Below, piece by piece: positions 10,088-30,159 of a DNA stretch of 64,000 nucleotides (positions are counted from its first letter, which is position 1; every line of letters starts with the position of its first letter). The notes beneath the pieces are model-generated. The model was not told where the DNA came from. It saw nothing but the letters and a program-made list of their open reading frames with translations, and did no database searches. Source of the stretch: Bacteroidota bacterium (lineage in GTDB: Bacteria > Bacteroidota > Ignavibacteria > Kapaibacteriales > NICIL-2); NCBI GenBank assembly GCA_019695345.1, contig JAIBAE010000001.1:1-64000 (forward strand), read 5' to 3'. The position numbers and the translations under genes are program-made.

Positions 10088-13000
10088 ATGAAATACGGAA
10101 AACATAGTTCAATATTAATATTCCTGCTTTTAGCAGGAGTACCAATGTGTGTATGGGCACAAGGAAGTACAACTCAGCAAGGTATTAGGTTTATACATCC
10201 AACGTCAACTACAAATGCTATATCACTTGTGCCGCCATCAAGTATAACAAGCTATACGCTAACATTGCCCGGTACACAAGGGGCTGCAAGTTCGTATTTA
10301 ATGAACGATGGCAGTGGGACTTTATCGTGGGCAACATTAAGCAGTAGTACGGCACTTTCTGGTATAACAGCTGCAACAGCAACTAATAGTATAAACAGCT
10401 CTAACTTTGGGCAAACATGGGCATGGAATACCCTTGCAGGAACATCCGCATTAACGTTATCATCCACAAGTACAGCCGCTGCAAGTAATGCCCAAACATT
10501 ACTGAATATCTCACTAAGTGGTGCTAATGCTACAACTACGCAAACAACGTATGGCATGCAAGTAGCCAACACGCATACGGGCACAAGCTCAACAAATATT
10601 GCCGGGTACTTTACTGCAAGTGGAGGTACTAACAATTACGGATTAATTGTAGCAAATGGAAATGTAGGAGTAGGAACAACAACGCCTTCTCAGATGTTGC
10701 ATGTGCTTAATGGCAATATTTTATTGGATAATAGTGATAATACTGCACGTGAATTACGTTTTGAAGAGCCAAGTGGAAGTGGAAGTAATTATACGGGATT
10801 TAAAGCACAAGCACAGGCAGCAGACGTAACCTACACATTACCTGCAGCCGACGCAACCGTAAGTGGTCAGGTACTAAGCTCAAATGCAGCTGGTACGTTA
10901 AGTTGGGTAACAGCGTTAACATCTTCTAATGGATGGAGTACATTAGGTAATGCATCAACCGTTGATGGTACTAATTTTATTGGTACAACAGATAATATTC
11001 CATTTAATATAAGAGTAAATAATCAACGTGCAGGTAGAGTAACTAGCAGTACAAGTGATGTGTACCTTGGTTATCAGGCTGGTAGTACAACCTTTACCGG
11101 TGATAACAACACCGGAATTGGTTATCAGGCACTTACAATAAACTCAACGGGGCAGTATAATACGGCCATTGGTGCTTATACGTTGGATGCAAATTTAACC
11201 GGTGCGGCAAATACTGCATTAGGGTTTGGGGCATTGGGAAGTAACCAATCGGGGGCATATAATGTTGCAGTTGGTAATCATGCGTTGGCTACCGCTTCTA
11301 CTGTTTCCGAGAATACCGCAGTAGGTTCTGAAGCATTACGATATACAACAGGTGCTTTAAATACTGCTATGGGAAATGCTGCTTCACGTAACACTTCAAC
11401 GGGTATAGAAAATACTTCTATTGGTGCATATTCCTTACTTGGAAATAATACAGGGTCGGGTAATACGGCTATTGGTGTTTATACTTTAAATGGAATAGTT
11501 GGTGGCTCTGCAAATACAGCAGTTGGTAGAAATGCTTTGTATAATCTTTCATCGGGAAGTGATAATGTATCAATAGGATCATATTCTGCAACCGGATTAA
11601 CTTCCGGTAGTGGGAATATTTCCATTGGGACAAATTCATCGCTACCTAGTGCTACAGGAAGTAATCAGTTGAGTATTGGTAACTGGATTTATGGAACAAG
11701 TGGAGATATAGGAATTGGAACAACCTCTAATGCAAGTGGCTCTAAACTTGACGTGCGTGGGCATCTTGCCTTATCAAATGCAGGTACAGCAAGCGAGTTA
11801 CGCTTCTACGAACCAAGTGCAAGTGGAAGTAATTACACGGGATTTAAGGCACAGGCGCAAGTCGCTAATGTTACGTATACTTTACCTGCAGCCGACGCAA
11901 CCGTAAGTGGTCAGGTACTAAGCTCAAATGCAGCTGGTACGTTAAGTTGGGTAACTGCAGCAACAAGTAGTACAGCGTGGATGCGTGCTGGAAATGCTTC
12001 TACGTCTCCGGGAACAGACTTTGTAGGTACAACGGATGCACAGGCATTGGTAATAAAAACAAATGGAACAGAGCGCGCACGTTTTGCCAATGGTACAACA
12101 TTAACATTTGGAGCACAGGGAAGTGCCGCTTCAGCACCACCAACATCGTTTACTATAGGTTCAGCAGGATGGACGGCATCGTCAACATCTACAAATCAGG
12201 CAGGCACGAATACAATTATACAAGGTGGTCCGGGAACGGGAACCGGTACGCCAGGATATATCTCCATGCAAGTACCATCAACGGGAGCAAGTGGAACGGT
12301 GGTGCAATCGTTATCGGAAATGATGCGCATAAACAGTACTGGTGTGTTAGTAGGCGGTGCAAGCGGAACAATGCCAAACTACCGCTTACAGGTAGATGCA
12401 AACAGTGGCGGACAAGCATATATCAACTTTACAACAGGTTCCGGATCTGGAACTGCTTCAACAGATGGATTATTGGTTGGATTAATGAGCGACAACACCA
12501 ACGCGTTGATAAACAATCAAGAAGCAGGATATATAGCAGTCAGTACAACTGGAACAGAACGATTACGGATATTCTCGGGCGGTGGCGTAGGAATCAACAC
12601 AACATCGCAAACCTCAGGGAGTACCTTAGATGTAAAAGGGCATATAACATTAAGTAATAGTGGTACTGCAAGCGAACTACGATTCTACGAACCAAGTGCA
12701 AGTGGGAGTAACTATACTGCGTTTAAGGCACAAGCGCAAGCGGCGGATGTAACATATACTTTACCTGCTACCGATGGAGGCGTAAATTCAAATCTACAAA
12801 CCGATGGCTCGGGGAATCTATCATGGTCAACCATTGGTAACACTCAAGTGGCTAAAAAGACTTCTAATACCAGTAGGTCCTCAACGACAACTTTATCCGA
12901 TGACCCACATCTTACATTAAGTCTTGCAGCCAATCAAACTTTCGAAATTGATGTATTTGTAAATATTCAAGTTTCAAGTGGAACTAACGGAGGAGTTAAG

Positions 13001-16127: not shown

Positions 16128-16284
16128 ACCTTATTTGTAATACCTTATCTAACCCCAAAATATAGAATTATTGGATTTCGGCACAGTAGTTGCCCTAAAC
16201 CCTGCAAAGGGTAGACTGTAGCTAATTGCAACAGAACCCGTTTTCATGGATGAACAAACAACTTTCTTTAAAACAAGGATTGTT

Positions 16285-19200
16285 ATGAAGAACAAATTAT
16301 ACCTATACATTCTCGTTTCCGCCTTTATAGTATTAGGGAACACCGCACTTTTAGCACAAGGTATAGGTGCCGACTCGGTACGACTTAGAAGTTCTGCCGG
16401 CGGTTCGGCGTGGTTATCTCTGCCATCATCAATGGTGAGTAACTACCGCCTTATATTTCCTTCCACATTAAATTCTTTAGCCGGACAGTTGATGATTGTT
16501 GATGGTATAACAGGTCAGGTAAGCTTGTTATCACCCGGTTCAGCCGGACAGTTGCTACAGTTTAATGGCACTAATTTGGGTTGGACTTCTATAGCTGCCA
16601 TTACTAATGGTACTATAACTAATGCTACCATGCGTTGGAGTGGTTCTGCATGGATTGAAAACCCAACCATATTGGGCAATACCACAGGCGGGCTTACACT
16701 TGGAGGTACTTTACAAAGTGGCTCGCTTGTTATTAGCGATGGAACTTTGGTACCCAAGTATGCCTCAATTTACACAAATACACTTGTTAGTAACAGAGTA
16801 TATACAGTTCCTGATGCCGGAGCAGATGCAAGCTTTGTAATGACGGAAGGAAACCAGACCATTAATGGTGTTAAAACCTTTGGAAGCGCGCCAATATTCG
16901 GCTCGTTAACCGGAATTCTTATAGGTAACGGCTCCGGAGCGTTATCAACCGCAACCATAACCGGAACAACAAACCAAATAGGTGTAACAAACGGCAACGG
17001 AACAGCAGGCAACCCAACGATATCGTTAGCAAGCGATGCCGTACTACCCGGAACAGGTGCTGTTACAGTACCAACAGGGAATTCATCGCAACAGCCTGCA
17101 TCGCCATCTAATGGCATGTTACGGTATAACACTACATCGGGAAGATTTGAGTTTTACCAAAGTGGCTCGTGGGTAACATTTGCAACCGGCGGGGCATCCT
17201 TAGCTGCCGGTACAGCATCAGACGCTACTTTGCGTTGGAGTGGCTCGGCATGGATTGAAAACACAAACGTTAAAACAAACGCAGGTACGCTTACATTAGG
17301 CAGTAATGCAACTGCCGGCTCAACAGTGATTAACGATGGAAACGGACAAACCGCAACACTATCGTTAGCCGATGTGGCTGCCAACCGTATATATACAATC
17401 CCTGAAGTTGGCAACAATGCAAACTTTGTAATGACGGAAGGAACACAGACTGTTAATGGTAGTAAAACATTTGGCAGTACAATAACGATTAGTCCGTTTA
17501 GTACAGCAGGAGTAGTAAAGAATAATGCAAGCGGTGTATTAAGTACCGGAACAGTATTGTTATCCTCAACCAACGATGTAAGCGGTGTGTTGCCTGTAGC
17601 AAACGGTGGAACAGGAGCAAGTACGTTAACCGGACTTGTAGTAGGAAACGGAACATCGGCAATGACAACAGCAACCATAACCGGAACAGCAAACCAGGTA
17701 AGTGTAACAAACGGCAACGGAACGGGTGGTAACCCAACCATAGCCATAGCAAGTGATGCTGTATTCCCTGGAACAGGAAGTAATACGATAGTAACAGGAA
17801 CAACCATACAACGTCCGGGTTCGCCAAGTAATGGCATGATGCGCTACAACTCAACAACAGGATTGTTTGAGTTTTATCAGGGTGGTGCTTGGGTAAATTA
17901 CTCAACAGGTTCTGCATCGTTAGGAGCAGGCACAACCAATAATACAACGTTACGGTATAATTCAGCAACAAGCCAATGGGTAGAGAATACATCAATCTTA
18001 GCAACAAGTACAGGTAGCTTAACAATGGGTGGCAACAGCCAAGCAGGAAGTGTATCGTTAAGTGACGGAGCCGTAACAGCTAACACCGCAACAATAACAA
18101 GCGCAACACAAGGTACAAACAGAACCTACACAATACCAAACGCAGGTAACAATGCAAACTTTGTAATGACTGAAGGAGCACAAACTGTTAATGGCAGTAA
18201 AACATTTGGCAGTACAATAACGATTAGTCCATTTAGTACAGCAGGGGTAGTAAAGAACAATGCCAGTGGTGTGTTAAGCACAGGTACAGTTTTGTTATCC
18301 TCAACCAACGATGTAAGTGGCGTGTTGCCTGTAGCAAACGGTGGAACGGGAGCAAGTACGTTAACCGGACTTGTAGTAGGAAACGGAACATCGGCAATGA
18401 CAACGACAACGATAACAGGAACAACAAACCAGGTAAGTGTAACAAACGGCAACGGAACGGGTGGTAACCCAACCATAGCCATAGCAAGTGATGCTGTATT
18501 CCCTGGAACAGGAAGTAATACGATAGTAACAGGAACAACCCTGCAACGTCCGGGTACGCCAAGTAATGGTATGATGCGATATAACTCAACAACAGGATTG
18601 TTTGAGTTTTATCAGGGAGGCACGTGGGTAAATTACTCAACAGGCGGCGGCTCGCTCGGGGCTGGTACAGCTAATAATACAACATTGCGATACAACTCAG
18701 CAACAAGCCAATGGGTAGAGAACACATCAATCTTAGCAACAAGTACAGGTAGTTTAACAATGGGTGGCAACAGCCAGGCAGGAAGTATGTCGTTAAGTGA
18801 TGGCGCAGTAACAGCTAACACGGCAACAATAACAAGTGCAACACAAGGAGCAAACAGAACCTACACAATACCAAATGCAGGCAACAATGCAAACTTTGTA
18901 ATGACGGAAGGTACACAGACCATAAATGGAAGTAAGACATTTGGCAGTACGTTAACCATAAGTCCGTTTAGTACGGCAGGAGTAGTAAAGAATAATGCAA
19001 GTGGTGTGTTAAGTACCGGAACAGTATTGTTATCCTCAACCAATGATGTAAGTGGTGTGTTACCTGTAGCAAATGGTGGAACAGGAGCAAGTACGTTAAC
19101 AGGTTTAGTGGTAGGTAATGGAACATCGGCAATGACAACGGCAACGATAACCGGAACAACAAACCAGATAAGTGTAACCAACGGAAACGGAACAGGTGGA

Positions 19201-21594
19201 AACCCAACAATAGCAATAGCAAATGATGCTGTGTTTCCGGGAACAGGAAGTAATACAATAGTAACAGGAACAACCTTACAGCGTCCGGGCACACCAAGTA
19301 ATGGCATGATACGATACAATTCAACAACAGGATTGTTTGAGTTTTATCAGGGAGGTACGTGGGTGAATTACTCAACAGGTTCTGCGTCGTTAGGAGCAGG
19401 TACAACCAATAATACAACATTGCGATATAATTCGGCAACCAGTCAGTGGGTAGAGAACACTTCAATCTTAGCAACATCAACAGGTGGAATAACCGCAGGT
19501 GGAAATAGCCAAGCGGGAAGTGTATCGCTAAGTGATGGCGCAGTAACAGCCAATACCGCAACAATAACAAGCGCAACACAAGGAGCAAACAGAACCTACA
19601 CAATACCAAATGCCGGCAACAATGCAAACTTTGTAATGACGGAAGGTACACAAACAATCAATGGAAGTAAGAGTTTTACGAGCAATGTACTCTTAACAAA
19701 CAGTGGAACAGCAACAGAGTTACGATTGTATGAACCAAGTGCAAGCGGTAGCAATTATACAGCGTTAAAAGCTGCGGCACAGTCAACTGATTTGACGTAC
19801 ACTTGGCCAACAAGTGCTCCTTCTGCCGGACAGGTACTTAGCAGCGATGCAAGTGGAAACCTTAGTTGGATTGCACCAAGTACAGGTAGTATTACCGGCT
19901 CGGGTTCAAATACACAAGTTGCGTTTTTTACAGGGACTACTTCACTAGCTTCCAGCAGTAATATGATTTGGGATAACACAAATTCAAGGCTTGGTATTTT
20001 TTCATCATCACCTAATGCACGTTTGCAAGTTGGTGGTAGAATCATTGCAACGATTGGTACAGATAATACATTCCTCTCAGGAGGAAATGAAACTGTATCC
20101 GGTACATTAAATACCGGCATTGGATATAATGCTTTGGCTGGTATTACATCAGGTGGCTCTAACGTTGCTTTAGGAAGAAACACATTAAGCTCGTTAACAA
20201 CAACAAGTAATAACACTGCAATTGGTACCGGTGCAATGGGCGTTGCAAGTGGCTCGAATAATATTGCTCTTGGCTATTTAGCTGGCGATGCATTAACAAC
20301 GGGCTCTAACAATATCATTATAGGTTATGATATTGATGCACAAAGTGCAACGGGAAGTAATCAGTTAACGTTAGGAAATTTACTGTTTGCCAATGGTATA
20401 GATGGAACGGGTACATCGGTATCATCAGGCGCAATGGGAATAGGTGTTGTACCATCCGCGTTTGCATCGGGTGCAAAGTTTGATGTTCGTGGAAATGTAG
20501 CTTTAACTAATGCAGGTACTGCAAGCGAATTACGCTTTTACGAACCAAGTGCAAGCGGAAGCAACTATTCCGCGTTTAAGGCATCGGCACAGACAACAGA
20601 TTTAACATACACACTTCCAGCAACTGCACCAACTGCCGGACAAGTTTTAAGCAGTGATGCAAGTGGAAACCTTAGTTGGGTTGCACAGTCATCGGGTAGT
20701 GTTAGTGGTAGCGGAACAGCAACACAAGTTGCTTTCTGGAGTACATCTTCTGCTCTATCATCTTCATCAAACTTGTATTGGGATAATACAAATAGTAGGT
20801 TAGGAATTGGCACAGGTGCTACTGTAAGTGCACCACTACATATTATTAATACAGCAACTCAGGTACGTCTTGGTTACGATGTTTCCAACTACACCACACT
20901 CACCGCAATGAACAATGGTAACTTTGGCGTAAACCCAACAGGTGGTTTAACATCTTTTACCGGTATGGTATCTACATCTAATACGCTAATGGTTTCTGCC
21001 GGTGGTGCAAGTATAACAGGAAATAGTACTGTAACAGGAACGCTTGGTGTCTCCGGCAATGTATCATTAACTAATAGTGGTACAGCAAACGAGCTGCGTT
21101 TTTTCGAGCCAAATGGAAGTGGTTCTAATTTTACTGCATTTAAAGCACAAGCACAAGCGGGTGATGTAACGTACACACTTCCTGCGGCAGACGCAACTAC
21201 AAGCGGTATGGTACTTTCTTCTAATGCATCGGGAACGTTAAGCTGGGTTGGTAATGGTGCTTCGATAACAAACGGAGTTAGCTCACCATCGGCATATGCA
21301 GCTAATCAAAACAATTTATCAATAGTATCAACAGGGAATACAATTTATCGTATATCAGCTTCATCGGCAATTGATATTACAGGTATTGTTGCTGCCAGCG
21401 ATGGCAGACAAATCACTCTTATCAATGTTGGTAGTAGCGCAATTACCTTTAAGGTTCAAAGTGCAAGTAGTACGGCAACAAACAGATTTATTCTGAAAGC
21501 TAATGCAGATGCTGTTATGAATACCGACGATATGATAACGCTTGTGTACGATGCAACAACAGGACGTTGGCGCGAAATGAATAGGAATTTTTAA
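16285..21594 (+). CDS. Giant tail-fibre-like surface protein with three 245-residue tandem repeats (1769 aa)
   Basis: I chose the ATG at 16285 over the in-frame ATG at 16246 because it has an aagg ribosome binding site six bases upstream and begins a typical signal peptide ending TALLAQ. The N-terminal region differs from the previous genes. About residues 393-1127 are three tandem 245-residue units (735 bp each) that include DVSGVLPVANGGTGASTL and FEFYQGGxWVNYSTG motifs, typical of phage tail-fibre proteins. A YadA-head-like stretch lies at about 1262-1352. The C-terminus (TLVYDATTGRWREMNRNF) resembles that of the first, partial gene. Probably an extended surface fibre; the repeats should permit length variation by recombination (inference). 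Confidence 0.8.
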   Translation: MKNKLYLYILVSAFIVLGNTALLAQGIGADSVRLRSSAGGSAWLSLPSSMVSNYRLIFPSTLNSLAGQLMIVDGITGQVSLLSPGSAGQLLQFNGTNLGWTSIAAITNGTITNATMRWSGSAWIENPTILGNTTGGLTLGGTLQSGSLVISDGTLVPKYASIYTNTLVSNRVYTVPDAGADASFVMTEGNQTINGVKTFGSAPIFGSLTGILIGNGSGALSTATITGTTNQIGVTNGNGTAGNPTISLASDAVLPGTGAVTVPTGNSSQQPASPSNGMLRYNTTSGRFEFYQSGSWVTFATGGASLAAGTASDATLRWSGSAWIENTNVKTNAGTLTLGSNATAGSTVINDGNGQTATLSLADVAANRIYTIPEVGNNANFVMTEGTQTVNGSKTFGSTITISPFSTAGVVKNNASGVLSTGTVLLSSTNDVSGVLPVANGGTGASTLTGLVVGNGTSAMTTATITGTANQVSVTNGNGTGGNPTIAIASDAVFPGTGSNTIVTGTTIQRPGSPSNGMMRYNSTTGLFEFYQGGAWVNYSTGSASLGAGTTNNTTLRYNSATSQWVENTSILATSTGSLTMGGNSQAGSVSLSDGAVTANTATITSATQGTNRTYTIPNAGNNANFVMTEGAQTVNGSKTFGSTITISPFSTAGVVKNNASGVLSTGTVLLSSTNDVSGVLPVANGGTGASTLTGLVVGNGTSAMTTTTITGTTNQVSVTNGNGTGGNPTIAIASDAVFPGTGSNTIVTGTTLQRPGTPSNGMMRYNSTTGLFEFYQGGTWVNYSTGGGSLGAGTANNTTLRYNSATSQWVENTSILATSTGSLTMGGNSQAGSMSLSDGAVTANTATITSATQGANRTYTIPNAGNNANFVMTEGTQTINGSKTFGSTLTISPFSTAGVVKNNASGVLSTGTVLLSSTNDVSGVLPVANGGTGASTLTGLVVGNGTSAMTTATITGTTNQISVTNGNGTGGNPTIAIANDAVFPGTGSNTIVTGTTLQRPGTPSNGMIRYNSTTGLFEFYQGGTWVNYSTGSASLGAGTTNNTTLRYNSATSQWVENTSILATSTGGITAGGNSQAGSVSLSDGAVTANTATITSATQGANRTYTIPNAGNNANFVMTEGTQTINGSKSFTSNVLLTNSGTATELRLYEPSASGSNYTALKAAAQSTDLTYTWPTSAPSAGQVLSSDASGNLSWIAPSTGSITGSGSNTQVAFFTGTTSLASSSNMIWDNTNSRLGIFSSSPNARLQVGGRIIATIGTDNTFLSGGNETVSGTLNTGIGYNALAGITSGGSNVALGRNTLSSLTTTSNNTAIGTGAMGVASGSNNIALGYLAGDALTTGSNNIIIGYDIDAQSATGSNQLTLGNLLFANGIDGTGTSVSSGAMGIGVVPSAFASGAKFDVRGNVALTNAGTASELRFYEPSASGSNYSAFKASAQTTDLTYTLPATAPTAGQVLSSDASGNLSWVAQSSGSVSGSGTATQVAFWSTSSALSSSSNLYWDNTNSRLGIGTGATVSAPLHIINTATQVRLGYDVSNYTTLTAMNNGNFGVNPTGGLTSFTGMVSTSNTLMVSAGGASITGNSTVTGTLGVSGNVSLTNSGTANELRFFEPNGSGSNFTAFKAQAQAGDVTYTLPAADATTSGMVLSSNASGTLSWVGNGASITNGVSSPSAYAANQNNLSIVSTGNTIYRISASSAIDITGIVAASDGRQITLINVGSSAITFKVQSASSTATNRFILKANADAVMNTDDMITLVYDATTGRWREMNRNF

Positions 21595-21610
21595 TGAGTT
21601 GAGATTTCTT

Positions 21611-21666
21611 CCGGCAAGCTGTTGGTTATGCATAGCCATACAAGCGGTGCCGTCAGGCGATAGCAG
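21611..21666 (+). repeat. Short intergenic repeat copy (about 56 bp)
   Basis: CCGGCAAGCTGTTGG at the left and GGTGCCGTCAGGCGATAGCA at the right, 26 bases before the first short paralogue. Confidence 0.55.
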
Positions 21667-21691
21667 ATAAACAATTTATGGATGATTTACA

Positions 21692-22753
21692 ATGAAACAT
21701 AAAGTATATTTAATAGTTGTATTAGTTATGGCTGCTACATGTGTACATGCACAGTCGCCATTTCCATCGAATAAACAAAGTATGTTGTTCAGCAATGCAC
21801 AAAGTGGTGCAAGCGAGCGATGGATTTCTTTATTTGCTCCTACGTCGCTATCGGCTAACTACCGTTTAATATTCCCAACTACCGCACCTGCTGCCGGACA
21901 GATGCTTAACATTGCATCTATAAGCGGCTCGGATTACACAATGCAATGGGCAAGCGGAGTAACAGGAACGGGAACATCAACACAGATTGCATTTTGGAAT
22001 TCCAGTTCAACGTTATCATCAAGTAGTAACTTGTTTTGGGATAACACAAATGGACGGTTAGGTATAGGTACATCATCGCCTGCACAAAAACTTGAGGTGA
22101 TGAATGGTAACATACTTTTAAACAACAACAATAACACTTCTGGCGAGCTACGTATAGCCGAGCCAAGTACATCGGGTAGTAATTACACGGCATTTAAAAC
22201 ACAGGCACAAAGTAGTAATATAACCTACACATTACCCGCAAGCGATGGGTCATCGGGTTCGTACTTAGCTACAAATGGTTCCGGCGTTTTAACATGGACA
22301 CCAATGGGAAGTACAGTGCTTGTTAGAAAGTCATCGGATGAAACTCTTACAAATAACAACACACTACAGGATGATGACGAGTTATATTTTTCTATAGCTG
22401 CTAATGAGATTTGGGAAGTTGATTATATGATACGTGTGTATGGTGGTTCAGGTGATATTAAGTTTGCATTGGCATTGCCAACCGGAGCTACAATGTGGCT
22501 TACGGCGCAAGGTGATACCGATAATAGTACCGATGATTATATAGAGATGACATCACCCGGCACAGCATATAATTTTGATTCAGGTGGCAACTGGGTTATC
22601 TCTAACTCGGGCAGTCTTATTCATATTCATGGTATGATTGTGAATAGCTCAACAGCGGGCACTGTTAAATTTCAATGGGCTCAGCTTAATTCTAATGGTG
22701 CAGCAACAACGGTTAAAGATTTCTCGTATGTACGTGCAGCAAGGTTACAATAA
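21692..22753 (+). CDS. Short array paralogue A (353 aa secreted protein)
   Basis: First of three short paralogues in a tight operon. The signal peptide is followed by QSPFPSNKQS, then a block containing GASERWISLFAPTSLSANYR, a WDNTNGRLGIGTSSP motif and a single ELRIAEPS...YTLP...LTW unit. The last 147 residues start VLVRKSSDETLTNNN and contain WAQLNSNGAATTVK, the same C-terminal domain family as in the long array proteins. It therefore looks like a minimal version: signal, one stalk unit and a terminal domain. Its TAA overlaps the next ATG by one base (taATG), suggesting translational coupling. Function unknown. Confidence 0.8.
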   Translation: MKHKVYLIVVLVMAATCVHAQSPFPSNKQSMLFSNAQSGASERWISLFAPTSLSANYRLIFPTTAPAAGQMLNIASISGSDYTMQWASGVTGTGTSTQIAFWNSSSTLSSSSNLFWDNTNGRLGIGTSSPAQKLEVMNGNILLNNNNNTSGELRIAEPSTSGSNYTAFKTQAQSSNITYTLPASDGSSGSYLATNGSGVLTWTPMGSTVLVRKSSDETLTNNNTLQDDDELYFSIAANEIWEVDYMIRVYGGSGDIKFALALPTGATMWLTAQGDTDNSTDDYIEMTSPGTAYNFDSGGNWVISNSGSLIHIHGMIVNSSTAGTVKFQWAQLNSNGAATTVKDFSYVRAARLQ

Positions 22754-23817
22754 TGAAAAAAGTAATTGTTTCCATAGTACTTGTGTTAATTAACCTGAAC
22801 CTTCAGTTGCAAGCTCAGTCGCCGTTTAGTTCAAATAAGCAAAGTCTCTTATTCAGTAATACACAAAGCGGAGCAAGTGAGCGATGGATTTCTTTGTTTG
22901 CTCCTACGTCGCTATCGGCAAACTACCGTTTGTTATTACCAACTACCGCCCCAACTGCCGGACAGACTCTTAATACTGCATCTATAAGCGGCAGTGATTA
23001 CACAATGCAATGGGCTAACTGGGTAACAGGAAGTGGAACATCAACACAAGTAGCATATTGGAGTACAAGTACCGCACTCTCATCAAGTAGTAACTTGTAT
23101 TGGGATAATACTAACGGAAGATTAGGCATAGGGACATCATCACCCGGGCAAAAGCTTGAGGTGATGAATGGTAATGTACTACTCAATAACAACAACAATA
23201 CGTCGGCAGAGTTACGTATTGCCGAACCTAGTACATCAGGAAGTCATTACACGGCATTTAAAGCTCAGGCACAAAGTAGCAATGTTACATACACACTACC
23301 TGCTAGTGATGGTCCTAATGGTGCATATTTATCTACTAATGGTTCAGGAGGTCTAACATGGACTCCAATGGGAACAACTATTATTGTTCGCAAATCCGCG
23401 GATGAATCAGTAACAAACAATACTGCATTGCAAGATGATAACGAGCTGTTCTTTTCAATTTCGGCAAATGAAATTTGGGAAGTGGACGCAATGATACGGG
23501 TATATGGTGGCGGCGGAGATATAAAGTTTGCCTTGGTACTCCCAACAGGTGCAACAATGTGGATTTCTGCAATGGGTGATAATGATGCTAGTAATGATGA
23601 TTATGTAGAGATGACGAGTTCGGGTGTTGGATACACCTTTAATCCATCAGGTCCTTGGGAGATAACTGCAACCGGTACACTCGTTCATCTACATGGTTTG
23701 ATTGTTAATAGTACTAATGCAGGAACCGTAAAGTTCCAGTGGGCACAGGCATATAGTAATGGTACACCAACAACAGTAAAGATAAATTCTTTTATACGAG
23801 CAGAAAGAATTCAGTAA
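22753..23817 (+). CDS. Short array paralogue B (354 aa secreted protein)
   Basis: Close paralogue of the preceding gene over its whole length. The signal peptide is about residues 1-22 (QLQAQ), then SPFSSNKQS, GASERWISLFAPTSL, WDNTNGRLGIGTSSP, ELRIAEPSTSGSHYTAFKAQ and a C-terminal domain starting IIVRKSADESVTNNT and containing WAQAYSNGTPTTVK. The start overlaps the previous stop codon by one base and its own stop overlaps the next start by one base. Three near-duplicate subunits translated in a chain may mean a hetero-oligomeric structure (inference). Confidence 0.8.
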   Translation: MKKVIVSIVLVLINLNLQLQAQSPFSSNKQSLLFSNTQSGASERWISLFAPTSLSANYRLLLPTTAPTAGQTLNTASISGSDYTMQWANWVTGSGTSTQVAYWSTSTALSSSSNLYWDNTNGRLGIGTSSPGQKLEVMNGNVLLNNNNNTSAELRIAEPSTSGSHYTAFKAQAQSSNVTYTLPASDGPNGAYLSTNGSGGLTWTPMGTTIIVRKSADESVTNNTALQDDNELFFSISANEIWEVDAMIRVYGGGGDIKFALVLPTGATMWISAMGDNDASNDDYVEMTSSGVGYTFNPSGPWEITATGTLVHLHGLIVNSTNAGTVKFQWAQAYSNGTPTTVKINSFIRAERIQ

Positions 23818-24893
23818 TGAAAACTAAAACTATTATTTGTGCAATGTTAATAACCACTGGTATGGTTATGCATGCACAGTCTCCATTTTCATCTAACAAG
23901 CAAAGCTTACTATTAAGTAACGCACAAACCGGTGCAAGCGAGCGATGGGTTTCATTGTTTGCCCCTGGCGGACTCACTTCGAACTACCGGTTAATTCTTC
24001 CTGCAACAGCGCCATCTACCGGACAGTTCCTAAATATTGCATCAATAAGTGGCAGTGATTATACAACTCAATGGATTACCCCATTAACAGGAAATGGTAC
24101 TTCAACACAAGTTGCATACTGGAGCTCAAGTTCTGGGTTATCCTCCAGTAGTAGTTTGTATTGGGATAACACCAACGGAAGATTGGGAATCGGTACATCA
24201 ACTCCGGCACAAAAACTTGAGGTGATGAATGGAAATATACTTCTGAATAACAACAATAATACTTCGGCAGAGTTACGAATAGCAGAGCCAAGTACCTCCG
24301 GAAGTAACTATACTGCATTTAAAACACAACCTCAAAGTAGTGATATAACATATACCCTGCCTGATGCATTACCAACAATAAATGGAAGTGTCTTAGCGGG
24401 TACAACTTCAGGCGTGTTAAGTTGGTCGTCTCCATGGAGTTTAGGTAATATTATTCGTTTTGCACGTAAAACTACCGATGAATCTGTTTCTAATTCTACG
24501 CTTCAAAACGATGACCATTTATCATTTACTGTTGATACTAATGAAGTTTGGGAAATTGATGGTGTGTTAAACATGGATTGTTCAAGTACTTCTCAAGGTG
24601 GTATTAAATTAGCTTTTGCCGGACCTACTGGGTCTACAATAAATGTTCATGTTTTTATTTTAGCTGGGTATAATACACAAAGTACAGACGAGATACGGTT
24701 AATACTTGATACACCCGGAACCGCTTTAGGTTGGACAAGTGTAAAGTCGAACAATGCAGTTTATATTAAAGGTATTTTTACTACTTCAACAACAGCAGGC
24801 ACACTACAATTACAATGGGCCTTAAATAACGGATCATCCGAAACAACAACAGTAAAACAAAATTCTTACATTAAGTTGTTACGAATTCAATAG
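23817..24893 (+). CDS. Short array paralogue C (358 aa secreted protein)
   Basis: Third and most divergent of the short paralogues, and the last gene of the array. The signal peptide is about residues 1-21 (MVMHAQ). It has the same SPFSSNKQS, GASERWVSLFAP and WDNTNGRLGIGTSTP landmarks. The C-terminal domain, starting FARKTTDESVSNS, is more diverged and contains LQWALNNGSSETTTVK in place of the usual WAQ. A copy of the dispersed intergenic repeat begins eight bases after the stop. Function unknown. Confidence 0.8.
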   Translation: MKTKTIICAMLITTGMVMHAQSPFSSNKQSLLLSNAQTGASERWVSLFAPGGLTSNYRLILPATAPSTGQFLNIASISGSDYTTQWITPLTGNGTSTQVAYWSSSSGLSSSSSLYWDNTNGRLGIGTSTPAQKLEVMNGNILLNNNNNTSAELRIAEPSTSGSNYTAFKTQPQSSDITYTLPDALPTINGSVLAGTTSGVLSWSSPWSLGNIIRFARKTTDESVSNSTLQNDDHLSFTVDTNEVWEIDGVLNMDCSSTSQGGIKLAFAGPTGSTINVHVFILAGYNTQSTDEIRLILDTPGTALGWTSVKSNNAVYIKGIFTTSTTAGTLQLQWALNNGSSETTTVKQNSYIKLLRIQ

Positions 24894-24900
24894 AATATTC

Positions 24901-25352
24901 TTGCTATCGCCGGACGGCAGCAAACCTTCACTTTTAATCAAAACTCTCCATGCCGGACACAACCTTATTACACTAACAACATTGTTTGTGATGCGTAGAT
25001 ACTATACAATCAATTTCTGAGAGTTGGGTAGTAGGGAAGTGGTAGGTACTATTTAAAAAAAGTGCGGTGATTGACTCCCTTGCTGCCAACCACCGCGGAG
25101 AATAACCGACTCCCTTGCTATCGGTTATCCTCGTGGCTACCGACTCCCTTGCCAATCGGTAACCGTATGCAAGTTACGATAAGTTGATTGAATATAAAAT
25201 TGAATTCTTTATGATTTTTTCTTCACGTAATTTTTTTTCTGATTGCTTTGTACCGTGTTCACGATGAATGGTTGGTTATGAGTAAAAGATTCTCATCCGC
25301 AAGTGGTAGGAGTTGCAGGAAGTATAAATGCCGGGTGCGGTTTGCGTTAGCA
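24901..25352. repeat. Dispersed intergenic repeat copy, about 450 bp
   Basis: The left end at 24901 is TTGCTATCGCCGGACGGC; the right end at 25333-25352 is GGGTGCGGTTTGCGTTAGCA, its imperfect reverse complement. This copy is enlarged and contains the candidate three-hairpin RNA at 25055-25164. It occupies most of the 544-bp gap between the surface-protein array and the flagellar genes. Confidence 0.55.
25055..25164 (-). ncRNA. Candidate small RNA: three hairpins with identical GCAAGGGAG loops and a U-tract
   Basis: Read on the - strand, hairpin 3 (25164-25135), hairpin 2 (25132-25098) and hairpin 1 (25096-25064) follow one another with 1-2 base spacers. The stems have different sequences (9, 12 and 11 pairs), but every apical loop contains GCAAGGGAG. 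Each stem has a position that is an A-C mismatch on the + strand and a G-U pair on the - strand, which assigns the RNA to the - strand. Hairpin 1 is followed by seven U (25061-25055), so it also serves as an intrinsic terminator. Each loop has an ANGGA core (AGGGA), as in CsrA/RsmA-binding RNAs of the CsrB/RsmZ type. No convincing promoter was found. The RNA lies beyond the terminator of the flagellar operon. Confidence 0.6.
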
Positions 25353-25359
25353 TCTATTT

Positions 25360-25399
25360 AAAACAAAAACACGGTAATGCCCATGGTGGACATCACCGT
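25360..25399 (-). terminator. Intrinsic terminator of the flagellar operon
   Basis: On the - strand a 9-bp stem (ACGGTGATG with CATTACCGT, at 25399-25391 and 25379-25371) is followed by GTTTTTGTTTT. It lies 39 bases downstream of the stop of the flgM-like gene. Confidence 0.65.
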
Positions 25400-25437
25400 A
25401 TTATGTACATAAACGGCGTGTGAGAAGTTAGCAGACT

Positions 25438-25713
25438 TTATAAATCGCCGCTTAACTTACGTGCAACGGTGCGTAAAACTTCCGGGCTGTTGTAAAACCC
25501 TTGGTCTATTTTATTCTGAACGTTTTGGAGATTACGAGTTTCTCCACCTTCGTTCAGCTCGCGCGCTTGTTGCGAGATTTCCAACATATCGGGGTTTGAA
25601 CCCGATACTGCGCTTTGCGGTGAAACGTCGTCGCCTGTGTTTGCAGTGCGGTTTGAAGCGTTTACTTGCTCTATTTGTTGGTACGCACGCGTACCGCGTA
25701 TCATGTTAATCAT
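25438..25713 (-). CDS. flgM: FlgM-like anti-sigma-28 factor (91 aa)
   Basis: A short polar protein. The C-terminal third (NVQNKIDQGFYNSPEVLRTV) matches the FlgM pattern: a helix, then I-x-x-G-x-Y, then a second helix, the region that binds FliA/sigma-28. The N-terminal part is Asn/Gln/Ser-rich and probably disordered, as in FlgM. An aaagga ribosome site precedes the ATG. It is the last gene of the flagellar cluster, and the flagellin gene at the head has a sigma-28-type promoter, so the anti-sigma role is consistent. The family call rests on a short motif; no alignment was run. Confidence 0.6.
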   Translation of the reverse strand: MINMIRGTRAYQQIEQVNASNRTANTGDDVSPQSAVSGSNPDMLEISQQARELNEGGETRNLQNVQNKIDQGFYNSPEVLRTVARKLSGDL

Positions 25714-28920: not shown

Positions 28921-29087
28921 GTTATACCGTCCCTGTATTCCGTTTAACAACAATTACGTGATTTTTATGTACGTAGTACGCAAAATAGGGTTAAAGACAC
29001 TTGTCCTTCCCTTGGTTTTGTGTGCGTTCTATGGTAAAGTATCGTGTACTTACCCATAAACTTTAGAAAATTTTTTTAACAGGGAAA

Positions 29088-29179: not shown

Positions 29180-30109
29180 TTATCGTAGTAATTGCAAGAA
29201 TGTTTGGGGTGCTTGGTTAGCTTGCGATAACGAAGTGATTGAAGCTTGTTGCAAGAATTGTGAGCGAACTAATTCTAACTGCTCTTTTGCAACATCAGCG
29301 TCTTCAATTCTAGAAATTGCAGCATTATAGTTTGTAATCTGCGATTTCAAGTTATCTTCTTGCGATGTTAATCTGTTTGCTACACCACCAAGGTACGAAG
29401 CAACTTTATTAACATTATTTAAAGCCGATGAAAGACTTGATAATGTTGTTTGTATTGCTGTAGTAGAAAATATACCTAGGTTGGTAATTGATACTAAATT
29501 TAATTGGCTTAAATCCAAACCGGTAACTCCGGCAAAACTGGAAGCGGTGCTATTAACATTAAAGTTGTTACCTGCAACGTTAAAATCACTATTTCCTGTT
29601 GTTAAATCAACGGCTAAGGTCAACAATGAGTTTGTTGAATTTGAACCGATAACAAACTCAGCAGAAAATGCACCTGCAAGCAATTGCTGACCGCCAAATA
29701 CGGTAGAATCAACGATTGTTTGAATTTGTTGTGTTAATCGGTATGCTGCTTTAGCTAAAGCAACTTTTTCATCGGTACCCAATGCACCCGAAGCAGCAGA
29801 AGATGCTGAATCTTTAATCTGGGTTAAAAGGGTATTGATATTATCATAACCGTCTTGGGCTATATTGGTTACGTTAGAAGCCTCGCCAACTGCGCTGAGT
29901 GCTGTTTTTAACGTACCATTACGTGCGGTTAAAGCGCGTGATGTGATATAACCGGAAACATCGTCTTGAGCTGAATTTATGCGTTTACCTGTACTTAATC
30001 GTAACTGACGCAATGCGATGTTTTTGTTTGCAGTGTCTAACGCGTTATATGCGTTTTCTGCTGGTCCATTACTGCGAATTCTCGCTCCATTGGAAATTGC
30101 TGTAGGCAT
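29180..30109 (-). CDS. fliC: Flagellin (309 aa)
   Basis: It has conserved flagellin termini. The N-terminal D0/D1 part contains ANKNIALRQLRLSTGKRINS, AQDDVSGYITSRALTARNG and IAQDGYDNINTLLTQIKDSA. The C-terminal part contains YLGGVANRLTSQEDN, ISRIEDADVAKEQLELVRSQ and ends with FLQLLR. The central region (about 140-230) is short, so the filament surface domain is small. The start at 30109 is fixed by a GGGAGG site; an in-frame ATG at 30181 is rejected because it lies within the mapped sigma-28 -10 region. The leader has two hairpins, annotated separately. Confidence 0.95.
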   Translation of the reverse strand: MPTAISNGARIRSNGPAENAYNALDTANKNIALRQLRLSTGKRINSAQDDVSGYITSRALTARNGTLKTALSAVGEASNVTNIAQDGYDNINTLLTQIKDSASSAASGALGTDEKVALAKAAYRLTQQIQTIVDSTVFGGQQLLAGAFSAEFVIGSNSTNSLLTLAVDLTTGNSDFNVAGNNFNVNSTASSFAGVTGLDLSQLNLVSITNLGIFSTTAIQTTLSSLSSALNNVNKVASYLGGVANRLTSQEDNLKSQITNYNAAISRIEDADVAKEQLELVRSQFLQQASITSLSQANQAPQTFLQLLR

Positions 30110-30159
30110 GGGAACCTCCCTGTATGTAATTGATGAACTACTTGGGCATCCTGCCAGTA
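30110..30159 (-). promoter_or_regulatory. Flagellin leader hairpins: AGGAU-loop site and RBS hairpin
   Basis: On the - strand, TACTGGC (30159-30153), loop AGGAT, then GCC, a CA bulge and AGTA (ending at 30139) form a hairpin that presents AGGAU, the core of the CsrA-binding consensus. Next to the start codon, GGGAGGTTCCC (30120-30110) puts the ribosome binding site into a short hairpin. The two-site arrangement, one upstream and one at the RBS, resembles the CsrA-controlled hag leader of Bacillus subtilis. CsrA control here is inferred. Confidence 0.5.

Follow-up and report, generated by a model that had tools for sequence, protein, structure and literature searches.

On the minus strand of the 64,000-nucleotide stretch analysed here (the window), three consecutive hairpins with a constant loop form an array whose RNA is probably a CsrA-titrating sRNA, one of at least five paralogues in the same genome. 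This reading is drawn from sequence comparison and folding, and draws together the array, the csrA gene of the genome and the CsrA-type sites in its flagellin leader.

Three hairpins with an invariant loop

The first-pass annotation had described three adjacent hairpins whose stems differ in sequence and remain paired around a constant loop, followed by seven U. All of this was confirmed, and each stem is perfectly paired. The elements of the array, in the order of the RNA, are as follows.

25169..25176, minus strand: weak -7-like box TAACTTGC, 4/6 match to the Bacteroidota TAnnTTTG
25135..25164, minus strand: hairpin 1, perfect stem of 11 bp, loop GGCAAGGG
25098..25132, minus strand: hairpin 2, perfect stem of 13 bp, loop AGCAAGGGA
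25064..25096, minus strand: hairpin 3, perfect stem of 12 bp, loop AGCAAGGGA
25055..25061, minus strand: terminator-like U7 tract within CACTTTTTTT, 3' of hairpin 3

The invariant loop region of all three hairpins is GCAAGGGAG. The minus strand of the array folds at -55.3 kcal/mol (z = -7.1, none of the shuffles being as good) compared to -32.7 kcal/mol (z = -3.1 against shuffles) for the plus strand. The earlier argument that the minus-strand RNA is the one that folds therefore holds. The loop size of 11-12 nt given with it applies only when the closing pair, a weak U.G or U-A, is open; with that pair formed, the loops are 8-9 nt. The array is free of overlapping ORFs of at least 80 aa, and Rfam gave no match to the array RNAs, either at the gathering threshold or at E 10.

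The array belongs to a family of intergenic loci

The 4.56 Mb genome contains 25 occurrences of GCAAGGGAG. Fourteen of these belong to hairpins with perfect stems of 11 bp or more; at the other 11, no more than 5 bp form. By comparison, 0/317 sites in other organisms, among the matches listed, had a stem of at least 9 bp, and 2/190 sites in viral contigs did. Since more than half of the sites pair in this genome and hardly ever any in other organisms or viral contigs, the array is not a product of chance. It was first described as a single array; it is real, and is one of at least five multi-hairpin loci, all intergenic, with two or three hairpins each and 13 in all. These totals are lower bounds, the genome having been covered by model and pattern searches and otherwise by partial sampling.

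Locus A, 25064-25164 of the window, minus strand: 3 hairpins
Locus B, C4:2610-2717: 3 hairpins, between dusB and a WD40-like gene
Locus C, C39:363-435: 2 hairpins
Locus D, C26:7164-7278: 3 hairpins
Locus E, C60:4459-4523: 2 hairpins, loops AGTAAGGGA and GGCAAGGGG, beside fructose-bisphosphatase

AGGGA, a match to ANGGA, is present in the loops of 12 of the 13 hairpins, and in the other one GGGGG replaces GGGAG. The variant loops GTAAGGGAG, CTAAGGGAG and TGCAGGGAG retain only AGGGAG. The AAGGG cores are spaced 34-47 nt apart. The neighbour of locus E (L386 / C60), fructose-1,6-bisphosphatase, is a carbon-metabolism gene of the kind that is under CsrA control elsewhere.

An alignment of 15 hairpins of the genome had 95.4% of its cells paired, and 12/12 stem positions had changed on both sides in a compensatory manner while AAGGG stayed fixed. 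None of 500 shuffles was as good, and slid controls collapsed. Because the alignment had been fitted to the structure, the result is biased in its favour, but the raw stems also differ visibly and pair perfectly. The G that follows GGGA is invariant, and its pairing is mostly a weak wobble with U (11/15 hairpins), which suggests that it is kept for recognition and not for pairing.

Beyond this genome, covariance models R1 and R2 found zero homologues in 60 relatives or in 122 other genomes of the order, and the hairpins were absent from csrA-positive relatives in the same kind of search. Conservation of the hairpins, to which the first-pass annotation had looked for support, thus holds as strong covariation among paralogues and does not extend to any of the 122 genomes. 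A triple AAGGGA pattern was searched in 391 genomes of the class; outside the own genome, the matches listed were, by eye, only coding sequence or tandem repeats. Tandem units resembling AATCCCGAAGGGATGACATTATTATAG occur in many genomes of the class (for example G200, G213, G259 and G289). No comparable arrays were left after a hairpin filter among the listed matches in GTDB contigs or in IMG/VR, the surroundings (1.5 kb) of the homologue of the small flagellar-cluster gene contained no such array in seven relatives, and GGA-loop arrays were not found in an unbiased scan of 800 kb of one relative (G001). The arrays were therefore found in one genome among those searched. Several copies in a single genome could also reflect a DNA element, mobile or repetitive, that has no function as RNA. 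Such an element, or a chance array, is nevertheless very improbable, as the stems differ between copies with pairing kept, one strand folds much better than the other, and outside this genome the 9-mer hardly ever lies in a hairpin.

Predicted transcript boundaries and hairpins at the ends of giant genes

A T-rich tail follows the last hairpin at 5/5 loci. The -7 box of Bacteroidota is TAnnTTTG, and matches to it just upstream of loci A, B, C, D and E were 4, 5, 6, 5 and 5 of 6, respectively. The box is good at four of the five loci, all near the same place, and is weakest at locus A; the five together had P = 9.5e-5 against similar AT-rich windows. A scan for promoters of the E. coli sigma-70 type found none on the relevant strand. 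GacA/UvrY-type boxes upstream of the RNAs were considered and rejected, the best matches (7-9/12) being equal to those of random windows. Two features separate RNA A from the flagellar genes or lie beside it.

25368..25402, minus strand: terminator-like hairpin, ending the flagellar gene cluster upstream of RNA A
25438..25713, minus strand: small flagellar-cluster protein, homologues in 7/7 other genomes of the family

Because the terminator-like hairpin at 25402-25368 separates it from the flagellar genes, RNA A is probably a separate transcript. With their T-rich tails and -7-like boxes, the array RNAs in general may be independent transcripts. The small protein had no match in Pfam or NCBIfam and, judged by its position, is possibly FlgM-like. 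On the other side, RNA A adjoins a plus-strand tandem (16246-24893) of four repetitive proteins of secreted or surface-like character that resemble one another, one long and three shorter.

Single hairpins with T tails were also observed 3' of giant genes at C1, C27, C163, C26, C17 and C11. Loops of these 3'-end hairpins are GGCAAGGG, AGCAAGGGAG, TGCAGGGAG and CTAAGGGAG, and near-identical copies of the C11 hairpin are present at C90, C109 and C139. The six giant genes examined resemble paralogues, and a 1,786-aa member of the family has a match to the T9SS sorting tail that is below threshold. T9SS-like tails suggest that the DNA is of Bacteroidota-like origin. AGGGAG, which is ANGGA with N = G, is common to nearly all loops, both of the array RNAs and of the 3'-end hairpins. 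Terminator-like hairpins with AGGGAG-type loops were noted behind this gene family at L341:6195-6224, L347 (C17) at ~16,760-16,796 and L043 at ~10,190-10,220. The giant secreted-protein paralogues are ~1,780 aa long, and in several cases an AT-rich hairpin precedes the AGGGAG-type hairpin.

These like-looped single hairpins with T tails behind several paralogous giant genes would fit a family of specialised terminators or mRNA 3'-end stabilisers that has been duplicated, the multi-hairpin loci being their remnants or clusters. We consider this improbable. Loop sequence need not be constant in a terminator, and other strong terminators in the sampled part of the genome have unrelated loops. The five intergenic loci, moreover, carry two or three consecutive hairpins and promoter-like boxes.

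The genome encodes CsrA and FliW, and its flagellin leader carries CsrA-type sites

A search of the genome for csrA and fliW, proposed with the original description, found both: csrA (C18:14428-14580) lies directly downstream of fliW (C18:14062-14391). The encoded CsrA keeps the RNA-binding residues L4, R6 and R44, with positions read from the sequence, and matches RsmE and other solved CsrA structures. Its N55, a residue linked to the binding of FliW, and its C-terminal extension are together the marks of a FliW-regulated CsrA (PMC13407953). Across 61 genomes, csrA and flagellin were both present in 35 and both absent from 23, with csrA only in one and flagellin only in two.

The first-pass annotation had proposed that the flagellin gene is controlled by a CsrA-like protein. 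The leader of this gene indeed has two CsrA-type sites, and a third site lies further downstream in the cluster.

30145..30155, minus strand: CsrA-type site BS1, GGCAGGAUGCC mini-hairpin in the fliC leader
30114..30124, minus strand: CsrA-type site BS2, UACAGGGAGGU, overlapping the fliC Shine-Dalgarno
29180..30112, minus strand: fliC (flagellin), probable CsrA target
28927..28938, minus strand: CsrA-type site 5' of the probable fliS start, AUACAGGGACGG/AUACAGGGA, 10/12 to the consensus

Directly 5' of the fliC ATG, AUACAGGGAGGU matches the CsrA SELEX consensus RUACARGGAUGU (PMC7652899) at 11/12 positions; sites as good as this one occurred only 11 times on both strands of 875 kb of sampled sequence. 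With this site at its start, fliS is a candidate for a second CsrA target within the cluster. In the fliC leaders of relatives across the order, UACANGGAGGU is conserved, its N taking any of the four bases (A, C, G or T), and GGCAGGA(U/A/C)GCC is often present as well. The variation falls just where CsrA tolerates it. Neither leader site is present in G012, a 99% complete genome with no detectable csrA and the one flagellated relative of this kind that was examined; as G012 is a single control genome, its lack of both sites is no more than suggestive. The two other flagellin genes of the own genome carry UACAUGGAGGU and UUCAUGGAGGU at the corresponding position of their leaders. At L383 (the C41 flagellins of this genome), a second flagellin leader contains AAUUC-AAGGAU-GAAUU, a hairpin whose loop is a textbook ANGGAN hexaloop. 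Canonical CsrA sites thus seem to be present in the genome alongside the larger loops of the sRNAs. Given the conservation of the leader sites across the order, the predicted control of flagellin by CsrA is well supported by comparison.

Titration of CsrA as the favoured reading

From these features, transcription of the arrays, CsrA binding and titration can be proposed as follows. RNA A would run from about 25168 to its own U tract at about 25055, a length of ~110 nt. Each paralogous RNA would display two or three AGGGAG-bearing loops on long stems, and CsrA dimers would bind pairs of loops whose cores are 34-47 nt apart. One CsrA dimer bridges sites 10-63 nt apart (PMC7652899); the core spacing falls within this range and was counted in favour of titration. 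Bound CsrA would be withheld from mRNAs such as fliC, so that more of the RNA would give more flagellin translation, with FliW inhibiting CsrA in parallel.

Some features count against titration, namely loop size, long stems, a missing ACA and the absence of the hairpins from csrA-positive relatives. The lack of an Rfam match and of a GacA/UvrY-type box, the one hairpin with GGGGG and the weak -7 box of locus A were counted on the same side. RsmE affinity falls with extra loop nucleotides or a paired GGA, and SELEX ligands are short-stemmed (PMC7652899). The array loops, in contrast, are 8-9 nt long and place GGA next to the 3' arm, which is not the ANGGAN hexaloop, and their stems are 11-13 bp and not short. 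They also lack the ACA that both the SELEX consensus and the own fliC site have. The proposal of a CsrB/RsmZ-like titrating RNA thus gains from csrA, the leader sites and covariation, and loses from the missing canonical hexaloops and the lack of such hairpins in relatives.

The same departure from the CsrA hexaloop geometry would suit a genuine family of sRNAs unrelated to CsrA, acting through a different protein that recognises the constant loop or through loop-loop pairing with C/U-rich, CUCCCUUGC-like targets. The constant 9-nt GCAAGGGAG exceeds what ANGGA needs, and CsrA does not account for the GC that most copies keep 5' of AAGGGAG. We nevertheless regard a partner other than CsrA as unlikely: the variant loops GTAAGGGAG, CTAAGGGAG and TGCAGGGAG keep only AGGGAG, in agreement with ANGGA, fliC has a conserved CsrA-type site that includes AGGGAG, and no full set of CUCCCUUGC targets was found. 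A broader version of CsrA titration is put forward more tentatively. It holds that the arrays could be an independently evolved CsrA sponge family with a new loop design, in a fliW bearer outside Gammaproteobacteria, that the same CsrA-capturing loop may also lie at the 3' ends of giant secreted-protein mRNAs, and that CsrA may be held by FliW, sRNAs and mRNA tails together.

Comparison with known CsrA antagonists

The arrays resemble CsrB/CsrC and RsmX/RsmY/RsmZ of Gammaproteobacteria in having several GGA-loop hairpins, a terminator-like 3' end, paralogous copies and a csrA gene in the same genome. Those RNAs have CAGGAUG hexaloops, whereas the loops here are AGGGAG loops of 8-9 nt on 11-13 bp stems, with no Rfam similarity and no UvrY/GacA box found, in a host that has fliW. 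Because hexaloop, Rfam match and UvrY/GacA box are all lacking, we do not class the arrays as CsrB/RsmZ members, although they would act in a similar way, and the lack of Rfam similarity would point to an independent origin. TwoAYGGAY (RF01731) and Bacillaceae-1 (RF01690), predicted CsrA-binding RNAs outside Gammaproteobacteria (PMC4333381), likewise have paired GGA hairpins, but they consist of two hairpins with AYGGAY loops, come from other phyla and gave no Rfam match here. The flaA/hag mRNA-CsrA-FliW system shares the fliW-csrA pair and two CsrA-type leader sites, one over the Shine-Dalgarno. Its antagonists are FliW and the flagellin mRNA (the titrator in Campylobacter), whereas here there are separate intergenic RNAs as well.

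CsrA antagonism has been described as split between sponge sRNAs in Gammaproteobacteria and FliW elsewhere. CsrA-sequestering sRNAs are described as known only in Gammaproteobacteria (PMC4333381), and FliW is strongly anti-correlated with BarA-UvrY, the driver of sponge sRNAs (PMC4682653). The combination of FliW and sponge RNAs in one genome is regarded as rare or absent in the open-licence literature, and a 2020 review lists joint action of FliW and sRNA in any species as undetermined (PMC7652899). If the favoured reading is true, this genome would be a case of such coexistence. With a fliW-csrA pair, conserved flagellin sites and at least five sponge-like RNAs in one genome, the question of joint action becomes testable.
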